Positions 15,415-22,926 of a DNA stretch of 31,768 nt are shown here, one piece after another. The position numbers and the translations under genes were made by a program. Origin of the DNA: a virus; the IMG/VR virus record IMGVR_UViG_3300034198_004094, positions 1 to 31,768 of that record; one strand, given 5' to 3'. The notes below the pieces were generated by a model that saw nothing but the letters and a program-made list of their open reading frames with translations, was not told the origin of the DNA and did not search any database. How positions within the stretch are numbered: position 1 is the stretch's first letter; each line of letters begins with the position of its first letter.

Positions 15415-18400
15415 TTAGCGGTTCTTTTGCAGCAAGCTGCGTACGTATGGATCAAAGTCCTTCGATACGCGTAGACCCTCCATAGACCCAGCACGATCCC
15501 TATCGCGGGTCTTAAGGCTGTCTTGCCAGTTTTCGGGGTATATCGGGGTAATGTGGGCGGTGCTGTCGTTCCACTCATAGATTTTATCCCAGAGTTTGTT
15601 GACGTTCTTCTCGCCCTCCTCAACGCTGATACGGTTAAGGTCGACGTCCCGATACACTTTTTCCAGCTTATCTAGGTACTCCGAGCGTTCCTTCTCAATC
15701 TTAATGACCGTCTTCTTGGCGAGGATATTACTTTTCTGGATGTCAGACACATCGGTACGACCAAAGCCAATACTCTGCCCAACAAGCACACCCCATGTGT
15801 AATCCTCCACCGGAGCGACAACATCCTGCGTATTAGGCGTGATATACCCTTCAGACCCAAGCCGCTTCGCCATAAGTGCGTTACGCAACGGTGCAGGCGC
15901 AAGGTTTTCAGCAGCCCTCCACCCTTCACCCTTAGCTGCATAGTCCGCGCCGCGAACTAGGTTGCGCACCACTGAGCCTGTCGCACCGAACGCTAAGGTA
16001 TATGCCAAGGACCGTAAGGCTTCCTCGTTGCTATCAACCGGCGTGTCGTCACGGAAGAACAACCCATCAAGGCCGACCGATGAGCCGATGTTCATGTTTG
16101 TAACAGCAGAGACAGGACCCATCTTAACCGCACGCGTAAGTAGTTTTGCCTGTTCGTCGTCAAGACCCAAGTCGTTAGCTAGGTCGCTGTCAGGGCCAAA
16201 GTACTCAGGTAAAAACTTCTCACGGAACCACAAATCAAGATTACGTGCTGTAAGTGGATTGTTATCATCATCGTCTTCGGCATCGCCAAGGCCAGCCGCT
16301 GCAAGAAGTGAGGTCATAAGCCCCATCATGAAGCTGTAACCGGGCATATTTACACTACCGGCAATCATCCATGTCATACCGAGGGTACCGAAGAACTGCT
16401 TAGCCGCAACCTTACGCTCTGCATTGGGGAGTAGTGTCACTGTGTTTAAAAAACTACGGGTAAGGAACGACGCAATCTGGATAGGGAACGAGTAGAACTG
16501 TAGCGCAACGCGGCCAATTGGCCCCTTCATAGCGCGAGGCTTACTGCTTTCAGCGTAGTCGAACATAGTTTCGAGCGTCAGGTCAGCAGCAGTATCCGCA
16601 GCAATCTCCATGGCGGTCTTAGGGTCCATGCCATCTTTGATGCGCTTAGCGTAATCTAACTCGAACGCCGACATATACGCGATTTCACGTGAAATGCGTT
16701 CCGCATGGTGAATACCACCAGCGAAGAAATCAAAGACCCACTTACCCATTTTTGCAGGACGCCCTTGGAACTGCGCACTTGGTCCGGCTTTTCGCTCCAG
16801 TACGTCACCAGTAAAGGTAGAATCCACAATGGCGCGCTTGCGTCCATACTCCCAAGCAAACTTTAACGCTTTGCCTAGTTCAGGGTCTTTGTTGTTGTTG
16901 ATGTATTTGCTGTCACCCATGGTGGGTTGGCCCCAGTTGGTAACAAGGGTGCCGGTTTCATCTACCTTAGCTGTACCAAACTTATTACCTAAGGTTGCGA
17001 TATACCGCGCAGCCACAGCCGCAGTCTGCACCGTACCATAACGTGCGCCGAGAGCTGGCATTGCCACGGTAGGAAGCTGGAAGAACTGTGCTATCACAGA
17101 TTTGATGGACGTCAGTAGGTAGAAGAACGTCGCCTTATTCGCCAAACGTGCCATCGTGTCGAGCGAACTCGTATTCGGGCTGAAGGTTTCAGCTACGCGG
17201 ATAGCCATCTCGTCAATAAACGGTTGGAGTTGATCGCGGTTCGGGTTTCCAGCCATGAGGCCATATGCCTCACCGAGGGTCTGGCGGATTTTTGATGAGT
17301 ACTGCAAGTGTGTTAGGCGGTTAGCCGTCGACATCTGGGAGTCGACATACGCACGTAGCGTATCCGCCGAGAAACCGGCAACACCTTCGCGGTGTTGATA
17401 TCGCTCAAGGTTAGAACCCTTAGGGAGCGATGCAGCATAAAGCTGGAAGATCATATCCTTAATGGCCCGGACATCGCCCATGCCACCCTTGTCGATTTCT
17501 AGCAGTACATTCTTAAGGACGTCAGAAGGTTCAGCACGCAAGAAATCAGCTTCTAAGCCATCAATATCTTGGCCGAAGTTAAAGACCTTTTCGTCGGCCT
17601 TGATTTCTGAGGCACTGCGGGTATCGCCCGCATCTTGCAGCTTTTTGATACCTTCTTTGATAGCTTGCTGGTAAGCCGTCCCGTTGTTGTACCGTTTTAC
17701 ATCGCGGTTCTTACCCTTACCGACGCGTACCCAATAATCCCCTGTACGGAACAAAGTAGCATAAGGGGCGTTCTTCTTGGCTGCTTCGTACAGCTTATCG
17801 AGTAGGTCAACAGTTTGCTGGATACGATCCGCAGGCAGGCCAGACTTACGCACGCTGGATACCTGAGCGTTATATTCATTCTCAAACGAAGTCTTGTAGC
17901 CACCCATTACCATATCATAGATTAGCTGCCCTTCACCATTGCCCATCTCTGGGGCGGCAAGCGCTTCGCGCATATCGTATATGTATTTGATTTGGTTTTT
18001 GCGGTTACCCAAGGCATCTTTACCCGCACCGCTCTTAACCAGTTCAGCAAGCGTGTTATCCGCAGCCATGGCTGCTGCAAGTGACGGGTGACGCGACTCC
18101 ACTCCTAATAGGGTAGAACCGTTAATCAAATTAGCCAGTAGCTCAGCGCCTTCGCTGTATTTGGCAGCGAACTTCTCGTAGCGTTTAGCGTTATAAGCAA
18201 GGTCCTTAAGCATCCCGTTACGGTAGCCGTCCATCCTGCCGAGAAGCTCGTTGATGCGGTTAAGTTTGCGCGCAACAGGCGGTGACAGCTTGTTGATTAT
18301 GCGGATGAGGTCCCGGCTGTACGTAAGGTAGCCCAGAACAAACCGACGCCGCTTGTCTGACATATCTTTCCACGCGGAGTCCAGAACATCAAGCTTGCCC

Positions 18401-21400
18401 TTAATACTCCGTGACTTGAAAAACATAGTCCAAGTATCGGTATTGTTTTGAGCAGCGTCTTGGCTGGATGCTAAATTTCTTTCAAGACGCCGTACCCCAG
18501 CCATTTGCCGTTGGTTTACCTTAGGCGCAGCCGCAGGTTTAGCTTTGCCCTTAGCTTTGCTAGCCATGTACTTGTTGATGATCTCAACGTCGGCATCGTC
18601 GTAGATTACGTAGTTAAATGACGGCCTTATCCGGTACGGGGACCGTGAATTGCCATCTAGATACTTAGTACCGCGCACACCGGCATCAAGCAGCGCTAGG
18701 GAAGCATCTTTAGGCGAACGGTACTCGCGGGCAAGTATGCGATAGGCATCTTCACCATCGCTTGGTGTTGTCCGCTCCATTTTGCTGCGCCTAACCATCA
18801 ACTTTGTAATTTTGCTGGCCAACGGTTTTGCTTGGTCAAGGAGCGCTTGCGCTTGGGCTAGCGTTCTTTGGCTTTCCTCACCATACTGTTTATTCTCGGC
18901 TAAATATTCCAGACGAGAAGATTCTTCCATCAGGGGATAATATTCTCCCCGCAGCGCTTCTATCTCTGCGTCTATAGCCTCTAACTCGCTAACTCCGTCT
19001 ATATCAAGTCCGAGTTTGGTAAATGCTGCCTTCACTATATCTGACTGTTTGGAAATAGGTTCGTCCCATAATAGGAACTGATTATCCTCAGGGGTTAACC
19101 TAACTTCATATAGTTTGCCGCCTTGAATGACTTTAGCGCCAGCCTCTATCAAAAGCTGTGCAACGGCTACTTCGCGCCTCAGACGCGCAACATTACGCTC
19201 AACTAATTTAATCGTTTCCGAGTCTGACTCTCTATCAAGGTAATCAAGATCGTCTTTAATCATGTCGTTAGTGGTTTCAATATACACCTCTAACTCTTCA
19301 CCCCTTGGTAGATGCCCAATCGAACGCTCGATGTTTTTCAAAGCCTGCCCATACGGAGTAACTTTAGGATCAAGGTTCTCCATTGCCCATGTAAGGACGT
19401 CTTTGCCATTTACGGTAATCTTGTGCTTGGACAACGCCTTCCTATAGTGTTCTGCAATTCCCCGTTTGTCTGCGAAGTACAGACCCCAACCATAGACCTG
19501 CGCACCTTCACCACTGCCGATTTCATTGGAATCGAACTTATCAAAGTCGTGCGGGCCACCATGCCAGCCATTGACCATGTAGCGCAGGCCTTTGATGATG
19601 GTGCTTTCGCGGTTGCCGTCGATGACTTGGTCGTGTGCCATAGCCAGAATGGAACGCACTTCGGCGTCACTATAGTCCAGCTTCAAACCAATGCGGCGAC
19701 CGAAGTCCTTGATGACGGCAGAAATCTTAGCCCAGACAGACGCATCTACGCGGCCAGCTTCTGACTCCTCCGCAAGCACTTCTTCCAATGCACGTAAGTT
19801 AGGGTTGCTGTCGTTAGCGTAGACACCGGGATTATCAAAACTCCACTGGTCAGCCTGCTCACGCAGCTTCTTGCTACCCTTATAAAGCTGGGCAAGTACT
19901 GCGTCCAAGCGGGTGTTGAAAAGCGCACGCAAGCCAAGGTGCCCAAGTGCCTCATGGTAGACAGCCGAGCTAGCTTCTTCAAACGTGTCAATGTTACTGG
20001 CGACAAAATAAATTGTGCCATCCGGAGCCACAAAAGCAGGGACGCGTTCCATGCCATCACGCGTAACAGCCCTGCGCAGCGTATCCGGAAGCTCAGCAAT
20101 CGTACCAATAACCTTGATGCCAATCTTAGCACGCCAGTTCTTTGTGAGGTCCTTGATGTGCTCTATAAGGTCAGTAGCAGCCATACCTTCAGCAGCTTTA
20201 CCACTGCGGCTAGCTTGATATCTTTGCTTCTTTTCGTGACGTTCCCTAGCGGCTTTAAGCTCGGCATCGACTTCATCAATCGTACGGCGCTTTGTTTGAA
20301 GCTCAAACTTAACCCTATTGTAAGTTTTCTCGCTGATGAAAGGCTCAATTCCCATCTCAGGAACGCCCTCAAAAGCTTCTTCAATTTCCCCCATCACACG
20401 CTCAGCTTTGTCTTCAGGCGCTTCTTCGAGGTCTTCCTCGGGTGTGACCTCAACGGGTGCAGCTTCCCTTTGCTTACGAGCTTCGATTTCCCGCCGCAGG
20501 TTAGCCTCGGCTTCAGCATCCGCAGCCTCTTGTGCCGCTAGTTCTTGTCGCCGTGTATCAACATAACCTTGTACATTTTCCTGTGCAGGTGCAGCTTCGG
20601 GCTTAGGGCCATACAACCGCGTCATGCGCTCTTCGGCTACACGACGGTAGGATGCTGGGTCGGGTGTGCTTGTCCCCATGCCCCAATCAGAACCCAGTGC
20701 CCACGACACATCCGGGAATTTCTGTCCTGCAAACGCTTTTTCGAAGTTATCCCAAACCACAGCAGGTTCACGCCTGTCTGGGCGGTAGGGTGTAGGTGCA
20801 GGTTCTTCAGCCACAACTTCTTCAGCCGCCATCTCAGGCGCAGGAGCTAGTGCGACGTCTTCAGGTGTAATGTCTGCTACAGTAGGTGTAGGCTGAGCCG
20901 CTACTGATTCTTCTGTTAAGGGCATCGCCGCAGCAGATGTAGGCGCAGCCTCGGGGGCAATACCCAAGTCCTTAGCCGCAGTCTCTGCGATGCCCGGAAC
21001 CACACTGGCAGGGTTAGGCTGCGTAGCAGCTTTGATAGCTTCAGTAACCGGAGCTTTAGCCGCCTCATCGAGGGTGGGTCCTGCTGGCGCTGCGGTAGGG
21101 GTCGGGGTCGGAGCGGTGAACGACTTACCAGTAACCGCTTCCAGCGCAGCCACGGGGTCACCGTCATACTTACCATTTGCAAGCTGCTGCTTAGCCTGAT
21201 TGAACTGCTTTTGGTCAATATCGTTGACGTAGATAGACTCGTTGTTAAGTATCGTGTCGTTCAGTAGCTGGGTAGCTGCGCTAACTCGTTCCTTCAGCGG
21301 CACCTTCTTGTTGGTAAGGGCTTGCTTGGCTTCGTCTAATGTACGCTGCTGTTGTCCTTCCGCTCCAGTATCTGTTCCAACAGTATCTCCACCAGTTCCC

Positions 21401-22926
21401 ACTGATCCAGTGTCAGTTTCCCCAGCGCTTCCGGCCATACCAGCGGGTCGTACCCCATCACCACTAGGAACGCTTGGCTCAGTTCCTCCGGCGTCAGTTG
21501 TATCATCAGTGACTGACTCATCTTCGCTCCTTAGCTTAGCCATATAGTTGCTGACATCTTGGCGCGCTTTTGCGTTAGCCTCAGCTTCCGACTTACCTTC
21601 GGATTTGTACCGTGTGAAAGCTTCTTCGTAGGCTTTACCTACACCACCGGGACCAACACGGAGCATATCCGCTTCAAGCGCAGCGGCGCGGCGTTCTTCA
21701 TCGTCAATTTGCTCTTGGCGCTTGTCTGTGATTTCCCCGCGACCAGCTGCGACATTTAGGCCACCACCAAGGATACCGCCAAGTGTGCCTTCATAAGCGG
21801 CGCGTGAGAGCACGCCCTTCATTAGATCAGTTGGGAAACCAGCGCGGGTTTGGGCAAGGTTCTCGGCCAGCGCCTCTTGCCCAGCTTGAACACCTTCAGG
21901 AATACCCTCAACAAGTGCACCTTCTACGCCGCGACGGATAAGACCTTTACCACCGGCTTCCGCAACCGCTTCAGCTACGTCGGCACCAGTAGCGCGGGCG
22001 GCAGCAGCCGCAGCAGCAGCTTTAGCAGTGCGGGTCGTAATCTGTTTGGTTACGTCCCCGAGAACCCTACTAGCAATCATTTTACCAAGTAGAGGGCCAG
22101 CACCCGTTGCACTTGCAGCACCACCAATAACGCCGCCAAGGGCGATCATATCTGTATTTTCACCACCGTAAGCCTGCGCTTCTTCCGCAATCTTTTCTGC
22201 TTGTGCATCGGATAGACCTGACTGCTTGGCGCGGGCGAGCGTAGCATCGTAGATGTCGCCCTTAATCATACCGACGCCTGAAGCTGTACCTACGCCCGCT
22301 GCGGCGAGTAGGGGTATATAACTAGCGCCACCAGTGAAAGGCGCAGCGAGAGTAGCACCAGCGGCAGCGATAGCTGCTGGGGCAGCAGTGCCTAATAGGT
22401 TAGCCGTAGTGTCAATAGGGTGCCGCAAGAATGCTTTACCGGCAGCGCCAGCACCTTCCCAGAAGCCTTCAGCTTTAGCCATTTCTTCTGCGTCTTTAGC
22501 GAAATCTTCACGGGCTTCCGCAGAGAGTAAGTCATTAGTGCCTTTACCAAAGCTTTCCAAGGCATCGGACGCTGCATTGTCCGCACCGAAAAGGTCAGTG
22601 AAAGTCTTACCTATGGTGGCTACCCCACCCATAACCCCGAGTGGAACGTCTGTGATACTAGACAAAACACCGCCAACGACTGGAATTTCCTCAATCGGGC
22701 TAGGGGCGAACTTCTGCTTTTGCTTCTCTTCGGGGGCGGGAGGAGCCTCTACAGGCTTCCAGTTCTTTTGCTCGTTTGGGTTACCGCCTTTGAAGACATA
22801 CCCACCCGAAACCGTACCGGGTTTTGGCACAGCTATGGGAGCAAGCTCCCAGTTCTTTTGGTCGTTCGGGTTCCCACCTTTAAACCGATATCCATCGACG
22901 ACTGCGCCAACATTAGGTACCGGCAT
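15415..22926 (-). CDS. Giant polyvalent virion protein (peptidase-like, ART-like, LPD38-like)
   Basis: The 2503-residue protein starts at ATG 22926 (TAATG overlap with the upstream gene, GGGGGAC before it). In order it has two repeats of FKGGNPNxQKNW (15-26, 45-56); Ala/Gly-rich helices that may insert in membrane (about 170-295); a low-complexity acidic linker (469-531) and a Pro/Ala linker (about 600-725). A zincin-like motif HEALGH follows (His991, Glu992, His996). Next is an ADP-ribosyltransferase-like domain starting WHGGPHDF (1121-1128) with GWGLYFA (1146-1152) and closing near residue 1440. A long helical region (about 1650-2300), like the LPD38/PLxRFG class, comes last. Such polyvalent proteins are injected with phage DNA. 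It ends the tail operon and probably enters the host. The HExxGH spacing differs from standard HExxH. Confidence 0.93.
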   Translation of the reverse strand: MPVPNVGAVVDGYRFKGGNPNDQKNWELAPIAVPKPGTVSGGYVFKGGNPNEQKNWKPVEAPPAPEEKQKQKFAPSPIEEIPVVGGVLSSITDVPLGVMGGVATIGKTFTDLFGADNAASDALESFGKGTNDLLSAEAREDFAKDAEEMAKAEGFWEGAGAAGKAFLRHPIDTTANLLGTAAPAAIAAAGATLAAPFTGGASYIPLLAAAGVGTASGVGMIKGDIYDATLARAKQSGLSDAQAEKIAEEAQAYGGENTDMIALGGVIGGAASATGAGPLLGKMIASRVLGDVTKQITTRTAKAAAAAAAARATGADVAEAVAEAGGKGLIRRGVEGALVEGIPEGVQAGQEALAENLAQTRAGFPTDLMKGVLSRAAYEGTLGGILGGGLNVAAGRGEITDKRQEQIDDEERRAAALEADMLRVGPGGVGKAYEEAFTRYKSEGKSEAEANAKARQDVSNYMAKLRSEDESVTDDTTDAGGTEPSVPSGDGVRPAGMAGSAGETDTGSVGTGGDTVGTDTGAEGQQQRTLDEAKQALTNKKVPLKERVSAATQLLNDTILNNESIYVNDIDQKQFNQAKQQLANGKYDGDPVAALEAVTGKSFTAPTPTPTAAPAGPTLDEAAKAPVTEAIKAATQPNPASVVPGIAETAAKDLGIAPEAAPTSAAAMPLTEESVAAQPTPTVADITPEDVALAPAPEMAAEEVVAEEPAPTPYRPDRREPAVVWDNFEKAFAGQKFPDVSWALGSDWGMGTSTPDPASYRRVAEERMTRLYGPKPEAAPAQENVQGYVDTRRQELAAQEAADAEAEANLRREIEARKQREAAPVEVTPEEDLEEAPEDKAERVMGEIEEAFEGVPEMGIEPFISEKTYNRVKFELQTKRRTIDEVDAELKAARERHEKKQRYQASRSGKAAEGMAATDLIEHIKDLTKNWRAKIGIKVIGTIAELPDTLRRAVTRDGMERVPAFVAPDGTIYFVASNIDTFEEASSAVYHEALGHLGLRALFNTRLDAVLAQLYKGSKKLREQADQWSFDNPGVYANDSNPNLRALEEVLAEESEAGRVDASVWAKISAVIKDFGRRIGLKLDYSDAEVRSILAMAHDQVIDGNRESTIIKGLRYMVNGWHGGPHDFDKFDSNEIGSGEGAQVYGWGLYFADKRGIAEHYRKALSKHKITVNGKDVLTWAMENLDPKVTPYGQALKNIERSIGHLPRGEELEVYIETTNDMIKDDLDYLDRESDSETIKLVERNVARLRREVAVAQLLIEAGAKVIQGGKLYEVRLTPEDNQFLLWDEPISKQSDIVKAAFTKLGLDIDGVSELEAIDAEIEALRGEYYPLMEESSRLEYLAENKQYGEESQRTLAQAQALLDQAKPLASKITKLMVRRSKMERTTPSDGEDAYRILAREYRSPKDASLALLDAGVRGTKYLDGNSRSPYRIRPSFNYVIYDDADVEIINKYMASKAKGKAKPAAAPKVNQRQMAGVRRLERNLASSQDAAQNNTDTWTMFFKSRSIKGKLDVLDSAWKDMSDKRRRFVLGYLTYSRDLIRIINKLSPPVARKLNRINELLGRMDGYRNGMLKDLAYNAKRYEKFAAKYSEGAELLANLINGSTLLGVESRHPSLAAAMAADNTLAELVKSGAGKDALGNRKNQIKYIYDMREALAAPEMGNGEGQLIYDMVMGGYKTSFENEYNAQVSSVRKSGLPADRIQQTVDLLDKLYEAAKKNAPYATLFRTGDYWVRVGKGKNRDVKRYNNGTAYQQAIKEGIKKLQDAGDTRSASEIKADEKVFNFGQDIDGLEADFLRAEPSDVLKNVLLEIDKGGMGDVRAIKDMIFQLYAASLPKGSNLERYQHREGVAGFSADTLRAYVDSQMSTANRLTHLQYSSKIRQTLGEAYGLMAGNPNRDQLQPFIDEMAIRVAETFSPNTSSLDTMARLANKATFFYLLTSIKSVIAQFFQLPTVAMPALGARYGTVQTAAVAARYIATLGNKFGTAKVDETGTLVTNWGQPTMGDSKYINNNKDPELGKALKFAWEYGRKRAIVDSTFTGDVLERKAGPSAQFQGRPAKMGKWVFDFFAGGIHHAERISREIAYMSAFELDYAKRIKDGMDPKTAMEIAADTAADLTLETMFDYAESSKPRAMKGPIGRVALQFYSFPIQIASFLTRSFLNTVTLLPNAERKVAAKQFFGTLGMTWMIAGSVNMPGYSFMMGLMTSLLAAAGLGDAEDDDDNNPLTARNLDLWFREKFLPEYFGPDSDLANDLGLDDEQAKLLTRAVKMGPVSAVTNMNIGSSVGLDGLFFRDDTPVDSNEEALRSLAYTLAFGATGSVVRNLVRGADYAAKGEGWRAAENLAPAPLRNALMAKRLGSEGYITPNTQDVVAPVEDYTWGVLVGQSIGFGRTDVSDIQKSNILAKKTVIKIEKERSEYLDKLEKVYRDVDLNRISVEEGEKNVNKLWDKIYEWNDSTAHITPIYPENWQDSLKTRDRDRAGSMEGLRVSKDFDPYVRSLLQKNR
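21336..21521 (-). CDS. Nested overprinted ORF inside the giant gene, 61 aa
   Basis: An ATG at 21521 (minus) opens 61 codons in a different frame within the giant gene. It is 5 bases after a perfect AAGGAG (21527-21532 on the plus strand as CTCCTT). The product begins MSQSLMIQLTPEELSQAF, is acidic with amphipathic helices (LTLDQWELVEILLEQI) and ends NSSVH before a TAG. The giant protein's matching residues (469-531) are a low-complexity Asp/Thr/Gly linker. That is expected if the linker's codons are bent to keep the second frame protein-like. It could be a small regulatory or virion protein. No family match is known; expression is inference. Confidence 0.5.
   Translation of the reverse strand: MSQSLMIQLTPEELSQAFLVVMGYDPLVWPEALGKLTLDQWELVEILLEQILERKDNSSVH
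21527..21532 (-). promoter_or_regulatory. Shine-Dalgarno site of the nested ORF
   Basis: The minus-strand AAGGAG lies inside the coding frame of the giant protein, 5 bases before the nested ATG. The same hexamer and spacing serve other genes of this operon, for example the tail-hub-like gene. Its presence in a coding region is what makes internal initiation plausible. Confidence 0.5.
22747..22926 (-). repeat. Two 30-residue repeats at the giant protein's N-terminus
   Basis: Residues 1-30 and 31-60 repeat the block GYxFKGGNPNxQKNW with a 90-bp period. The copies differ by a few codons, so it is an old duplication rather than a recent one. The motif is rich in Gly, Asn and Trp and may bind another virion component. 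Confidence 0.6.

Follow-up and report, generated by a model that had tools for sequence, protein, structure and literature searches.

The window analysed here, a stretch of 31,768 nucleotides of viral DNA (IMG/VR record IMGVR_UViG_3300034198_004094, positions 1 to 31,768), carries on its minus strand a giant gene of the polyvalent type and, lying entirely within it in a different frame, a small second open reading frame (ORF) opposite giant residues 469-531 (Table 1). Relative to the giant frame the nested one is shifted by +1, and the product of the ORF at 21336-21521 (minus strand, 61 aa) reads MSQSLMIQLTPEELSQAFLVVMGYDPLVWPEALGKLTLDQWELVEILLEQILERKDNSSVH. The initial annotation had described a 61-codon minus-strand ORF with AAGGAG 5 nt before its ATG, overlapping a low-complexity linker rich in Asp, Thr and Gly; the sequence and its translation bore out both descriptions. 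The in-frame TAA upstream of the start speaks against entry into the nested frame from far upstream. Taken alone, the window's ORF is unsurprising, because the nested frame stays open in 57% of synonymous shuffles of the window's giant linker; it is comparative evidence, rather than ORF length, that lifts the nested ORF above chance.

Table 1. Coordinates of the nested gene, its start signals and the parts of its giant host gene in the window.
Feature	Position	Strand	Remarks
Nested small gene	21336..21521	minus	61 codons + stop; ATG start; C-terminal -SSVH*; family of 50 distinct peptides
Shine-Dalgarno AAGGAG	21527..21532	minus	5 nt upstream of the nested ATG; TAAGGAG from 21533
In-frame TAA upstream of the nested start	21531..21533	minus	four codons 5' of the ATG
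Giant polyvalent-type host gene, 2503 aa	15415..22926	minus	phrog_10089 DarB-like antirestriction, E=1.2e-40
Giant-frame linker, residues 469-531, overlapping the nested gene	21334..21522	minus	amino acids mostly follow nested-frame constraint
Giant N-terminal Ala/Gly-rich helical region, residues 76-468	21523..22701	minus	served as unbiased query; low-confidence all-helical model
Weak ADP-ribosyltransferase-like segment (ART-PolyVal), residues 1121-1166	19429..19566	minus	E=1.8e-4, under Pfam's cut-off
C-terminal polyvalent module, residues 1711-2487	15466..17796	minus	also occurs in cultured phages; part used for the census

The host gene is large and multidomain, with LPD or DarB-like domains in the window and its relatives, and is of the same kind as the polyvalent proteins treated, with LPD38 and LPD39, by Iyer et al. 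(2017; PMC5512222): LPD39 or LPD38 occurs in relatives, and the C-terminus is DarB-like. In the window's own giant the domain evidence consists of the DarB-like PHROG and the sub-threshold ART match. Giants that carry the nested gene have LPD39 or LPD38 wherever Pfam detects a domain, and LPD39 is also what Pfam detects in giants lacking it. Judging from these domains and from what is known of the family (PMC5512222), the giant protein is probably injected. An AlphaFold2 (AF2) model of its N-terminus was all-helical, with a mean pLDDT of 48. Farther along, giant residues 715-777 (window 20596-20784, minus strand) are 52% identical (E=6e-11) to QWY83152.1 of Rhizobium phage RHph_X2_24, which is the product of a free-standing 68-aa gene; its counterpart in the window is an in-frame domain of the giant. 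The window looks like part of a larger phage genome similar to the 60.6-kb contig L002. That contig (IMGVR_UViG_3300032327_000128, 60601 bases) encodes a nested protein and a 393-residue giant N-terminal region identical to the window's.

Relatives were collected with three kinds of query. The nested protein itself retrieved nine contigs, all of which had the nested gene; this query is biased toward the nested frame, and therefore the giant N-terminal region (residues 76-468) was also used, which added six new, distinct giants together with a near-copy. In all of these newly found giants except L030, which has neither the nested gene nor a long linker, a nested relative was clearly recognisable and occupied the same frame. 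Two early pattern matches, L012 and L014, proved to be proteins of no relation. The census proper took as its query a block from the C-terminal part of the giant, situated 875-1,460 codons away from the nested gene, and every ORF in the resulting loci was scanned with a profile of the nested family. It yielded 80 loci, 46 of them with the nested gene; among the 59 giants whose 5' end lies inside the locus, including one (L140) with the giant frame broken downstream of the nested gene, the gene was found in 43 and was missing in 16, and therefore is not always needed. All 50 distinct nested peptides lie under a giant ORF in one relative frame. The contigs of the 16 gene-less giants with intact 5' ends are often fragmentary and carry no copy at any other site, and no free-standing copy was found among the 50 distinct peptides and these contigs. 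The nested gene was also absent from cultured phages that share only the giant's C-terminal module, a tblastn search of cultured phages with six nested proteins gave no credible match, and a scan of a genome-contig collection found no relative. At two loci (L009:5084 and L140:8777) the nested gene is intact and the giant ORF is interrupted farther downstream, either by a real break or by an assembly error.

A start codon occupies the family start position in 49 of the 50 nested genes. Shine-Dalgarno matches of at least 4 bases precede 47 of the 50, all among the 49 with a start codon, compared with 15.8% of control sites, and matches of at least 5 bases precede 32, compared with 3.7% of control sites. 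An in-frame stop occurs within 10 codons upstream in 30 of 49 members, often directly before the start. These features indicate that the nested gene is provided with its own translation start. Its length ranges from 51 to 66 codons, and the C-terminus is VH, IH or LH in 43 of 49 members. Homologues of the giant gene had been proposed as the check on the nested frame, and among them the frame, its start and its Shine-Dalgarno sequence are kept, rather than the frame being broken, the Shine-Dalgarno lost and synonymous change unsuppressed. In the clade L062-L072 a conserved, open, basic extension lies 5' of the common nested start (MSKRRKRRRKREQDWMEEQ; MSKRRKRRRKREQDW...), so the true start there may lie farther upstream; the extension is a possible nucleic-acid-binding tail. 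A likeness between the N-termini of the nested protein and of the upstream gene's product (MSQ..MI) was dismissed as chance.

Selection on the two frames was compared in pairs of relatives. In 18 pairs, giant-frame positions 1, 2 and 3 within the nested gene changed at 0.167, 0.114 and 0.051 per codon, and in 150-codon flanks at 0.251, 0.214 and 0.375 per codon. Synonymous change in the giant frame is thus strongly suppressed across the nested gene, as the initial annotation had proposed to look for, with wobble change 7-fold lower inside than in the flanks. Because position 3 of the giant coincides with position 2 of the nested gene, substitutions inside show the nested frame's own pattern: its third position changes most, then the first, then the second. 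In a substitution-class test on 19 pairs (corrected for opportunity, binomial), changes silent in the nested frame and altering the giant outnumbered changes of the opposite kind by 226 to 58, which corresponds to a 4-fold preference for nested-silent over giant-silent changes (rate ratio 0.25, p=5e-26), and the chance that the frame would be open over 30 representatives is about 1e-35 if these are independent; the representatives and some of the pairs share ancestry, and therefore both probabilities overstate independence. No nested-silent change created a giant stop, where about seven were expected, which suggests translation of both frames. In many cases conservation is higher in the nested peptides than in the giant residues opposite them. 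By the sequence evidence, the nested protein is under purifying selection, the nested gene is more tightly constrained than the overlapping giant frame, and the giant frame is kept open through the nested gene with its amino acids there weakly constrained. Codon-usage scores were -0.24 for the nested gene, -0.11 for the giant in the overlap and +0.20 for the giant outside it.

These comparisons leave little to readings that deny the nested frame its own gene. An ORF held open by composition, as a by-product of codon choice in the Gly/Thr/Asp linker, would agree with the low complexity of that linker and with the shuffles of the window taken by itself, but the protein, start and ribosome-binding site are conserved, substitutions follow the nested phase, and chance openness is very unlikely in several clades (L038, L010 and L082); barring an alignment artefact, the substitution-class test has already refuted this reading, which we regard as vanishingly improbable. 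Nor is a nucleic-acid element, such as an RNA structure or recombination site whose coding look is secondary, anything but extremely improbable: in one relative (L131) a foreign N-terminal half has been fused to the giant close to the final codons of the nested gene, as such an element might allow, yet conservation tracks codon phase and amino acids, nested third positions are the most variable, and RNAalifold on 15 sequences found no consensus pair of a conserved RNA fold. Phages employ frameshifting in structural genes, and the +1 relation of the frames would suit a programmed shift that ends a short giant N-terminus in the nested peptide with no start of its own. The Shine-Dalgarno matches at the conserved start position and the stops shortly upstream of it tell against such a shift, which is very unlikely. 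A real, internally initiated gene is the reading we adopt, with a probability of roughly 0.93; a real second gene is almost certain because the sequence of the nested protein has persisted between distantly related phages as the giant around it changed. Four marks of an overprinted gene are present, namely same-frame openness, suppressed synonymous change in the host frame, purifying selection and, from sequence only, its own start, and by these marks the nested gene is old, fully nested and protein-coding.

A tree built from the giant C-terminal block (51 rows, midpoint root only) requires six changes between presence and absence of the nested gene, of which the starred branches force at least four. 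The deepest branches all carry the gene, and the patchy absence would be explained most simply by several losses from ancestral presence. The more alike two nested proteins are, the more alike are the 250 giant residues upstream of them (Mantel r=0.68), as expected under co-inheritance. In the most distant clades the giant N-termini have no detectable homology and the nested proteins can still be aligned; the nested gene is common to phages whose giants carry different domains. The earlier suggestion that a tolerant linker came first and the gene arose within it found no support here: conservation often favours the nested protein over the overlapping giant frame, the nested protein is present on the deepest branches, and the one gene-less relative whose linker could be read (L030) also lacks the long linker. 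The linker may instead exist because of the nested gene. This reverses the usual reading, as the hidden frame often dictates the linker of the visible protein, and it cautions that what looks like a low-complexity linker in a phage protein can be the imprint of a second gene.

The initial annotation's impression of a real protein was upheld, the product being small, soluble, helical and acidic, from an overprinted gene with its own ribosome-binding site. An AlphaFold2 model from 19 sequences places helices at residues 11-21, 31-34 and 38-57 (mean pLDDT 75), and the family has a median charge of -4. No membrane segment was predicted in any member (highest 19-residue hydropathy 1.16), and the window's peptide has neither a lipoprotein signal nor a transmembrane segment. 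The search of the product against phage proteins that had been suggested was run and matched nothing in PHROGs, nor, as noted above, credibly by tblastn. Pfam, NCBIfam and PDB likewise gave no match to the family, and a fold search with the small protein returned nothing at E<0.5; the family is unannotated and missing from every family library searched.

Among known systems, the Rz/Rz1 spanin genes of tailed phages, annotated in Erwinia phage PEp14, likewise include a small same-strand gene nested in another frame with its own start. Rz1 is an outer-membrane lipoprotein of lysis. The product described here, in contrast, has no lipoprotein signal or membrane segment and does not belong with Rz1 or the lysis genes, and the gene that encloses its own codes for a polyvalent protein of about 1,800-2,500 aa. 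Gene E within D of phiX174 and other overprinted genes of Microviridae, as covered in a review of overlapping genes (PMC8227390), are also fully nested second genes under their own selection, but phiX174 E is a membrane lysis protein of a tiny ssDNA genome, whereas the present host gene lies on a dsDNA phage contig. The embedded single-gene lysis genes of ssRNA phages are likewise small, unannotated genes inside larger phage genes, and share no sequence similarity (PMC7693330); the nested gene differs in being a single conserved family without a membrane segment. Searches of a limited set of papers gave no description of the nested gene; term searches showed none in PMC8227390, and in PMC5512222 they turned up no reference to overlap, alternative frames or internal translation. 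The familiar examples of phage genes lying wholly within another are associated with lysis or with small genomes; this family is widespread, old and situated in polyvalent genes of dsDNA phages.

Ribosomes would initiate internally on the giant's late mRNA, one message yielding both the giant and the small protein, and the latter may bind the giant, or the virion part that holds it, and keep it soluble or ready for packaging and injection. Our best guess, offered tentatively, is that the small protein serves the giant as an assembly factor or chaperone; this role is most simply inferred because the nested gene was never found away from the giant gene, and no fold or family match in the fold, Pfam, PHROGs, NCBIfam and PDB searches supports it. 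The nested product is thus a candidate for an unrecognised partner of polyvalent proteins. About as likely is a separate anti-host or regulatory role, in which case the nesting would reflect nothing more than an extension of the giant frame over the gene. Such a role would fit a gene that persists in giants differing in their domains and having N-termini without detectable homology, and the basic extension of one clade could bind nucleic acid, but every copy was found inside a giant gene and never free, which suggests a link to that gene or to its late expression. An antitoxin or immunity factor against an ADP-ribosyltransferase in the giant was considered in view of the weak ART-PolyVal match in the window and of Tsi2, a type VI secretion (T6SS) immunity protein, which made up two of four non-significant PDB profile hits (best E=0.34). 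The idea was dropped as quite unlikely, since the Tsi2 profile reached only that value and a Pfam ART match was found in none of eight nested-positive giants scanned; PDB fold searches gave no Tsi2-like match either, and the product does not group with Tsi2-like immunity proteins.

A more far-reaching and rather improbable proposal is that the locus has the small gene as its fixed, functional core, across which different polyvalent proteins have been built, the linker being a by-product of read-through and the conserved DNA a joint for module exchange. If that were true, the small protein would be a required partner for any effector cargo of the phage. L131, which adjoins L130 on the tree, is a recombinant that retains only the nested gene's last codons: at L131:976-7377 all of the giant upstream of them has been swapped for another N-terminal module, leaving the remnant ...EQTVH*. 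In L029 (6196-6450 and the downstream giant frame) a second partial copy of the nested tail (EQTVY*) lies farther downstream within that giant gene, which would suit a tail acting as a joint for module exchange.
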